This document shows positions 31,565 through 32,364 of a stretch of 32,515 bases of DNA, one piece after another. The stretch covers positions 1-32,515 of the forward strand of contig WRAZ01000025.1 of the NCBI GenBank assembly GCA_009779925.1, written 5' to 3'. The first letter of the stretch is position 1, and every line of letters begins with the position of its first letter. The position numbers were made by a program, and so were the translations under genes. The notes under the pieces are model-generated. The model saw only the letters and a program-made list of their open reading frames with translations. It was not told the DNA's origin and ran no database searches. Source of the DNA: Chitinivibrionia bacterium. GTDB lineage: Bacteria > Fibrobacterota > Chitinivibrionia > Chitinivibrionales > Chitinivibrionaceae.

Positions 31565-32224
31565 CTATTCAATAGTTAATCCGTAAATACAGTCGTCATA
31601 AAGAAAGTTTAACAGTTTCTCGTCGTTGCCCGAATTGTAATAATCTGTTAAATGCTTATTGAAAGCAGGAATGCTCACTTCTTTAATCTTAAAAATACCC
31701 GCTCCGTTCATTATCAGAATTTTATTTGCGGCAAGAGTAGCAGTTCGTTTGTTCCCGTCCCAAAACAATTGGCTTCTTGTTATATATGCAAACATTTTTA
31801 ATGCTTTTTCGGTATGAGAAACTTCTGCCCTTAATATTTTGCCGATTTCTTCTGCCACTTTCTCCTCAGTCGGAATTGCGGGAATATAATCTGTCCCCGA
31901 AATACCGACGTTTCCTTTTCTTAAAGTTCCCCATTCAAGCGACTCATTTCTGCTTATATGCTCATTTATTTTACAGATATACTCCGGCACAAGTTCGTCT
32001 TGTGCTGTTTTCATTACAAATCGCCAAGCGTCTCTCAGGTTTAAAATTGTAGTAATATCATCAAGGGTAATGCTCGGAATATTAACTCCGTCTAAAATTG
32101 TCTGAGTTTCAGGAAAAGTAGTGTTTAGTCCCTCAAGTTTCGCACTGCAATATATATTTTCGACTAATTGTTTTTTAGCCAAAAAAATGTTTTGTTCTAT
32201 TGTTAGCTTATATTTATCTTTCAT
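31565..32224 (-). CDS. Fic-domain protein with inhibitory helix and His-to-Gln core
   Basis: Fic proteins usually transfer AMP from ATP to target hydroxyl groups. This 219-residue protein has an N-terminal inhibitory motif [ST]xxxE[GN], read as SAKLEG at 27-32. Typical Fic sequence LRKGNVGISGTDYIPAIP follows at about 101-118. The core loop is SQLFWDGNKRTATLAANKIL (151-170). The canonical motif is HxFxDGNKR; here the first residue is Gln152, so the general base is missing while Phe154, Asp156, Gly157, Asn158 and Arg160 remain. It may be inactive, or belong to a subfamily with different chemistry. No antitoxin gene is adjacent. The ATG has AAGGAG 7 nt upstream. Confidence 0.88.
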   Translation of the reverse strand: MKDKYKLTIEQNIFLAKKQLVENIYCSAKLEGLNTTFPETQTILDGVNIPSITLDDITTILNLRDAWRFVMKTAQDELVPEYICKINEHISRNESLEWGTLRKGNVGISGTDYIPAIPTEEKVAEEIGKILRAEVSHTEKALKMFAYITRSQLFWDGNKRTATLAANKILIMNGAGIFKIKEVSIPAFNKHLTDYYNSGNDEKLLNFLYDDCIYGLTIE

Positions 32225-32328: not shown

Positions 32329-32364
32329 AAAAGAACAGACGGCAACAACTCCGTCTGTTCTTTT
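32329..32364. terminator. Strong bidirectional intrinsic terminator
   Basis: AAAAGAACAGACGG (32329-32342) and CCGTCTGTTCTTTT (32351-32364) form a perfect 14-bp stem with an 8-nt loop. It ends in T4 on the plus strand and T8 on the minus strand. It would stop a leftward transcript entering from beyond the window, or a rightward one, and isolates the fic gene from its neighbour. Confidence 0.8.

Follow-up and report, generated by a model that had tools for sequence, protein, structure and literature searches.

A Fic protein with glutamine in place of the motif histidine and a retained class II-type glutamate in a Chitinivibrionia bacterium

Fic catalysis is described as dependent on a histidine of the core motif, and an N-terminal glutamate is described as its inhibitor. 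The inhibitory Glu234 of FICD interacts with Arg374, which is the second arginine of the motif (PMC6826200). This second arginine binds the γ-phosphate, and in wild-type complexes the glutamate also touches the ribose (PMC3667792). In Fic-1-AntF, deAMPylation needs both Glu28 of the antitoxin and His135 of the Fic protein (PMC13327609). A clade with glutamine in place of the histidine, D2, was described from 45 sequences with the consensus Qx[F/Y]x[D/E][G/V]NKR; its members are usually single-domain bacterial proteins and were suggested not to be dead, in a section without an assay (Khater and Mohanty 2015, PMC4454073). In this study, we analyzed a stretch of 32,515 nucleotides (nt) from a Chitinivibrionia bacterium (contig WRAZ01000025.1 of assembly GCA_009779925.1, positions 1 to 32,515 of the forward strand; the window), which carries a gene for a Fic protein with such a glutamine, here called a Q-type Fic. 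Q-type Fics keep the glutamate and have dropped the histidine and mostly the arginine partner, too. A large and mobile family of this kind that is under selection offers a natural test of the purpose of the glutamate and may reveal a Fic function other than AMPylation.

An initial annotation, made from the sequence alone, had read the gene as a Fic protein with the inhibitory motif SAKLEG and the core QLFWDGNKR, in which glutamine stands for histidine. This was borne out, and the motif coordinates fit the span 31744-32146 given there. The features of the gene are as follows.

31565-32224, minus strand: Q-type Fic gene, 219 amino acids (open reading frame (ORF), Pfam Fic, AlphaFold2 model, match to solved structures)
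32129-32146, minus strand: SAKLEG, class II-type inhibitory motif, residues 27-32 (Glu31 conservation and FIC-1 alignment)
31745-31771, minus strand: QLFWDGNKR, Fic core motif, residues 152-160 (codon reading and family counts)
31736-31738, minus strand: Thr163, codon ACT, at the position of the second motif arginine (family counts)
31919-31921, minus strand: Arg102 in LRKG, near-invariant (113 of 114 rows of the Q-type alignment)

The gene begins with ATG, contains no internal stop and is open over its full length. Gln152 is encoded by CAA (31771-31769) and Glu31 by GAG (32134-32132). Pfam Fic (PF02661) is the one Pfam family over its cut-off in the 219 residues (34.7 bits, cut-off 24), while the score with the Doc toxin model TIGR01550 of NCBIfam stays below the cut-off (24.7 versus 38.65 bits). 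The canonical AMPylating pattern HxFx[D/E]GNGRxxR is not matched. The motif of the window protein, QLFWDGNKRTAT, departs from it by glutamine for histidine, lysine for glycine (NKR, not NGR) and threonine for the second arginine; the absence of the second arginine had gone unmentioned in the initial annotation. In weak matches of a PDB sequence search (E 0.097 and 0.7), Gln152 lies opposite the motif histidine of Caenorhabditis elegans FIC-1, and Glu31 aligns with its inhibitory Glu274, the FIC-1 chains having E at this position in 5jj6 and G in 5jj7 (E274G mutant). Seven Fic matches were found in the host genome and the motif could be read in all of them: the other six have histidine, and the window gene alone has glutamine.

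Glutamine in place of histidine characterizes a large and mobile subfamily in which it is conserved; it is a real feature, not an error. Relatives were collected from 95 loci (5 plasmid, 10 viral and 80 genome loci, the latter being the best of at least 555). The key position is glutamine in 94 of these, arginine in one and histidine in none, and the inhibitory glutamate is present in all 93 that cover it. Collecting homologues to see whether glutamine marks a subfamily was the check proposed in the initial annotation; it came out in favor of the subfamily, and the case that homologues all have histidine fails. Of the 448 plasmid records with a relative, 10 were fetched, and the motif readings cover a minority of the 448. 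Glutamine was fixed in the pattern of the first viral scan, while the patterns of the later scans were free of it. A pattern allowing histidine or glutamine before xFWDGNK gave matches in 5 of 398 genomes, all with glutamine, and 16 viral matches, again all with glutamine (10 Fic proteins and 6 unrelated ORFs); since these are mostly genes fetched earlier, the point is limited to no histidine version turning up. A sequencing or assembly error hiding a true CAC or CAT codon, for which it can be said that CAA is one base away from a histidine codon, is scarcely credible in view of these counts, and an error or private mutation was rejected on the same grounds, with 0 of 95 relatives carrying histidine and no histidine version in the pattern scans.

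For residue-wise conservation, 114 Q-type rows (110 distinct genes, four rows repeating another) were compared with 23 His-type rows. The motif expression used for both sets admits only glutamine, histidine or arginine at the key position, and two entries, the window gene fetched again (L007) and L118, stand outside the 114 rows. The His-type rows are those found by the Q-type profile and lean to class II, so that their complete set of glutamates (23/23) is partly a selection effect; four of the six other Fic proteins of the host (L003-L006) have no such class II-type glutamate motif and are not among these rows. Profile scores of Q-type rows are at least 106 bits except for L115 (64) and L013 (46), and His-type rows never exceed 72. 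Glu31 is found in all 111 Q-type rows covering it. Asp156 occurs in 114/114 Q-type and 22/23 His-type rows, and Asn158 and Arg160 are complete in both sets (114/114 and 23/23). Position 159 is lysine in all 114 Q-type and glycine in all 23 His-type rows. Position 152 is glutamine in 113 of 114 Q-type rows (arginine in one) and histidine in 23/23 His-type rows, and the second motif arginine (position 163) is present in 7/114 versus 23/23. The helix residue at position 87 is mostly asparagine in the Q-type rows (101/113; histidine in 10/113) and always histidine in the His-type rows (23/23). Five columns have zero entropy among the Q-type rows: E31, D156, N158, K159 and R160. The first residue of the SAKLEG-type motif often varies in relatives (S, N, G, T).

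The ratio of nonsynonymous to synonymous substitution rates (dN/dS) between relatives has a median of 0.12 and a maximum of 0.27 (157 non-independent pairs with dS of 0.05-1.5, from 162 computed). Conservation is highest in the active-site cluster, and the relatives evolve under purifying selection. The set conserved under this selection comprises Gln152, Glu31, Asp156, Asn158, Lys159 and Arg160, with the catalytic histidine and the second arginine absent. The claim of the initial annotation that the inhibitory glutamate and the nucleotide-binding residues are kept while the general base is lost holds throughout the subfamily (Glu31 in 111/111, DGNKR residues). Its suggestion of altered chemistry or a pseudoenzyme may hold in its first part, whereas a decaying pseudoenzyme is disfavored by dN/dS and active-site conservation. 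That the window gene is a degenerating, pseudogene-like copy without function is very improbable: in-frame stops occur in a Campylobacter jejuni plasmid copy and in one Enterococcus phage record, but the reading frame of the window copy is open throughout, selection between relatives is purifying and the active-site set is conserved. The interrupted Q-type copy lies at L019:4001-4690 (C. jejuni plasmid NZ_CP014345.1); ten more C. jejuni/coli plasmid matches of equal or nearly equal identity have two ORFs annotated or no single full-length call.

In a tree of 62 rows (38 with glutamine, 23 with histidine, one with arginine), all His-type rows fall on one side of a branch with support of 97/93, and the arginine row falls within the glutamine side. 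With the motif masked (59 rows, omitting L013, L138 and L017), the split has a support of 99/91 and is found in 200 of 200 bootstrap trees. The tool warned that long branches meet (L115, L002, L014), and the base of the tree is therefore not to be over-read. The second motif arginine is kept in L121, L111, L113, L143, L114, L115 and L013, and these seven rows lie outside the main Q-type clade in the 62-row tree. The simplest order of change would therefore be histidine to glutamine first and loss of the second arginine later, an inference resting on rooting with the His-type rows. L115 (phage record MT835728.1) and L013 (a genome of the order of the window) are distant Fics with a glutamine motif (QPFIDGNKRTSR and QPFEDVNKRVAR) and could be intermediate or separate glutamine lineages. 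In an unrooted tree of the core domain with the motif masked, Doc (15 rows, 100/99), Q-type (24 rows, 82/73) and His-type proteins (22 rows, 86/85) each form one side of a branch; without a root, the tree is compatible with the Q-type being sister to Doc or not.

An AlphaFold2 model from the window protein and 58 relatives has a mean predicted local distance difference test score of 95.8 and a predicted template modeling score of 0.93. Its best solved matches are structures of FICD over residues 1-219 (Z 24.9), with superpositions of 2.1 Å over 200 residues (4u04_A) and 2.4 Å over 210 residues (9yz5_A), followed by C. elegans FIC-1 (Z 23.3), Clostridioides difficile Fic 0569 (Z 22.6) and Bacteroides thetaiotaomicron BT_2513 (Z 22.1). 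By architecture, the predicted structure is that of a compact class II Fic. The class II motif [S/T]xxxE[G/N] is found ahead of the Fic core (SAKLEG, residues 27-32, the glutamate aligned with Glu274 of FIC-1), and in the model it sits at the end of the helix 20-30. The pairing of the inhibitory glutamate with the second motif arginine, which also belongs to class II, is lacking, with Thr163 at that place. The "intact inhibitory helix" of the initial annotation is thus half supported by the sequence: the glutamate is there, and its partner arginine is missing in the main Q-type clade.

Taken together, we tentatively favor, at somewhat below an even chance, the explanation that the window gene encodes a maintained, ligand-binding Fic of class II fold, probably acquired horizontally, which is not an ordinary AMPylase and in which Glu31 is a working residue. 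The aspartate, asparagine, lysine and arginine of the loop and the glutamate are the most conserved residues, which is best read as a live ligand site. Through its DGNKR loop, the site would still bind a nucleotide or Mg-phosphate. Since the histidine is absent, the His-dependent mechanism as known could not be used, and AMP transfer of this type would not take place. As the usual partner arginine is missing in the main clade, Glu31 would be kept for more than blocking ATP, which suggests a new task; most likely, it would position or activate a nucleophile in a different phosphoryl or nucleotidyl transfer or hydrolysis, while Gln152 would contribute hydrogen bonds as an uncharged residue. The protein would probably serve mobile elements in an accessory role, perhaps linked to Fic- or Doc-type modification. 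With less confidence still, we propose that the Q-type Fics form a separate functional class on a class II chassis, with the glutamate essential in a His-free site, either as a new transferase or hydrolase or as a natural trap for nucleotidylated proteins that Fic or Doc enzymes nearby produce.

Several points weigh against this explanation. To our knowledge, no member has a known ligand, target or activity, and a working enzyme is deduced from conservation; a conserved pocket in a non-catalytic binding protein would look much alike. One relative, L093:5001-5654 from a metagenome-assembled genome of Desulfosporosinus, has arginine at the glutamine position as the sole exception among the 95, with no other Fic match in its genome. 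Another, L118 from the record of Enterococcus phage Efs 1-1-1, is a decayed member with an in-frame stop that keeps the glutamine and has isoleucine for Arg160. FICD H363A (PMC6826200) and Fic-1 H135A (PMC13327609) lose both activities. The second arginine is dispensable in Fic-1, where R146A still AMPylates, and deAMPylation was lost in H135A alone among the mutants of Fic-1 examined (PMC13327609). Because R146A stays active, loss of the second arginine says less about Glu31. Finally, according to simulations cited in PMC13327609, Glu234 of FICD has no direct effect on deAMPylation.

The same data bear on whether the protein could be an ordinary Fic AMPylase or deAMPylase in which glutamine weakly replaces histidine. 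Residual activity has been cited for a His-to-Ala mutant of a Fic protein and for a His-to-Gln mutant of another enzyme, in the account that regarded D2 as not necessarily dead (PMC4454073), and loss of the second arginine alone leaves Fic-1 working (PMC13327609). However, besides the histidine, the motif glycine (now Lys159), the second arginine and helix position 87 are changed as well, and H135A ends deAMPylation in Fic-1-AntF (PMC13327609), which makes an ordinary enzyme improbable. Altered chemistry and non-catalytic ligand binding may both stand as readings of the sequence, and a non-catalytic binding pocket is the main alternative to a working enzyme. In its specific form, the protein would be a natural reader or trap, binding nucleotidylated or otherwise Fic- or Doc-modified proteins or pairing with a canonical Fic, and would buffer or neutralize a modification system. 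This is possible, though on balance rather unlikely. In published systems, FICD H363A traps AMPylated BiP although it has no activity (PMC6826200), BepC is a Fic protein with non-enzymatic action (PMC7842960), and one Fic protein neutralizes another in Campylobacter fetus (PMC5651007).

The gene neighborhood speaks on both sides of the reader or trap. A motif search of the flanks revealed His-type Fic or Doc genes at 9 of the 95 loci. Five of these (L038, L079, L088, L099, L111) have a canonical His-type Fic gene on the same strand, starting 35-133 nt downstream of the Q-type gene. Given the Fic density in 15 carrier genomes (about 1.2 non-Q-type Fic genes per Mb), one would expect 0.93 and 0.06 such cases. 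Fic is also the commonest Pfam family among 150 flanking genes (five, the next families having four), these five presumably being the same five tandem loci. The scan covered 150 of 160 neighbors; the other 10 are ORFs that are short or overlap, among them the first piece of the Fic gene of L019 itself. The Q-type Fics of L079, L088 and L099 are 71-72% alike, while their partner Fics are only 26-37% alike; since similar Q-type Fics adjoin dissimilar partners, the pairing arose more than once. The tandem partners stem from different Fic lineages. On the other side, 86 of the 95 loci have no such neighbor in the available flanks, and the Q-type gene is the only Fic match in 4 of the 15 carriers (draft genomes), one of these being the arginine variant. 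With the density of G060, the richest carrier (own Q-type copies counted), 3.7 and 0.22 cases would be expected and the excess becomes modest (9 versus 3.7 in the flanks), and shared mobile islands could account for the neighbors.

An obligate partnership with another Fic is unsupported, given the 86/95 loci and 4/15 carriers mentioned. A conserved partner gene or antitoxin was likewise rejected: even the most widespread neighbor families reach no more than 10 of the 95 loci, and these look like housekeeping genes common to related Bacilli.

Relatives were found in 448 of 72,556 plasmid records, with Enterococcus (149), Lactiplantibacillus (73), Latilactobacillus (48), Piscirickettsia (40), Ligilactobacillus (22), Campylobacter (19) and others as hosts, in 2 of 50,697 phage records, in 10 viral-contig loci over two scans and in at least 555 stretches of the species-genome collection. 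By record title, the fetched loci come from Bacillota, Spirochaetia/Spirochaetales, Endomicrobia, Saccharibacteria, Campylobacter, Neisseria, Fusobacterium and Piscirickettsia. Two records labeled as plasmids (L022, Neisseria gonorrhoeae; L116, Fusobacterium vincentii) have a length of about 2.1 Mb and look like mislabeled chromosomes. Because plasmids of common Bacillota that are easy to handle in the laboratory (Lactobacillaceae, Bacillus velezensis) carry relatives, tests on Q-type Fics are within reach.

At E values of 1e-40 or better, 7 of 299 genomes (8 matches) and 4 of 198 were hit in two phylum samples, both of which include the genome used as center. Besides the host, 8 of 59 related genomes gave a match, with a best E value of 2.2e-9. 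The guanine and cytosine content of the Q-type gene is 35.5%, the lowest of 28 picked coding sequences in the window, and the others have a mean of 44.5% (standard deviation 2.5). This low value, together with the matches in related genomes, suggests that the window gene was probably acquired horizontally. Outside the gene itself, one further feature lies upstream of it.

32329-32364, minus strand: terminator-like hairpin with a 14-pair stem (region scan)

Lying in the stretch from the Fic gene to the contig end, it is preceded by an A-rich and followed by a T-rich stretch and is possibly a bidirectional terminator. Five terminator-like sites were found in the region versus 0.6 in shuffled sequences.

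How the window protein compares with described systems can be summarized as follows. With FICD/HYPE and C. elegans FIC-1, it has in common the predicted fold over residues 1-219, the position of the inhibitory glutamate and the DGN-R phosphate loop. It differs from them by glutamine for histidine, lysine for glycine and the lack of the second arginine, at 16-20% identity in structural alignments. C. difficile Fic 0569 (4x2d/4x2e) is a bacterial protein of similar size (Z 22.6, 2.5 Å over 212 residues) with 19% identity. Doc toxins (TIGR01550) resemble the window protein in NKR and in the absence of the second arginine (15/15 Doc-type rows), but keep the histidine, are 124-157 residues long and are without the N-terminal segment. 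The phage protein family phrog_11900, which has no assigned function, matches residues 14-208 with an E value of 5.4e-37. In Fic1-Fic2 of C. fetus, a class II Fic and a degenerate one stand in tandem, and Fic-Fic neutralization occurs; unlike the window protein, Fic2 keeps the histidine, needs it for toxicity and is without the inhibitory motif (PMC5651007). BepC (PMC7842960) and AvrB (PMC10866546) use Fic or Fido folds in non-AMPylating roles, but both are injected effectors, and BepC keeps the histidine and differs at the acidic motif residue. SoFic-type defense proteins (PADLOC PDC-S04) consist of a class II AMPylase domain with a canonical core plus a C-terminal domain (PMC12249575). PDC-S04 overlaps SoFic according to one survey, and its deletion gave no defense phenotype according to another study. 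The window protein matches the model with an E value of 7.6e-8, but was rejected as such a defense protein, having 219 residues, no second Pfam domain and no catalytic histidine.

The closest described group remains D2, whose existence in print since 2015 (PMC4454073) corrects the initial annotation. QLFWDGNKR in a single-domain protein of 219 residues agrees with the D2 description, and because its motif fits the consensus, the window protein is, judged by its sequence, a new member of a known, uncharacterized kind. Among the literature matches listed, searched at the level of title and abstract with subscription papers and preprints outside, no experiment on a Fic with a glutamine motif was found. 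D2 was placed within the Doc subfamily, and its section in PMC4454073 leaves the inhibitory glutamate unmentioned, whereas the Q-type proteins analyzed here form a group apart from Doc and class II Fics in the unrooted tree, carry a class II-type glutamate and have a FICD-like predicted fold. Compared with the description of 2015, new aspects are the invariant glutamate mostly without its partner arginine, the predicted class II fold, the evidence of selection, the distribution across phyla and mobile elements, and the repeated tandem arrangement with His-type Fics.
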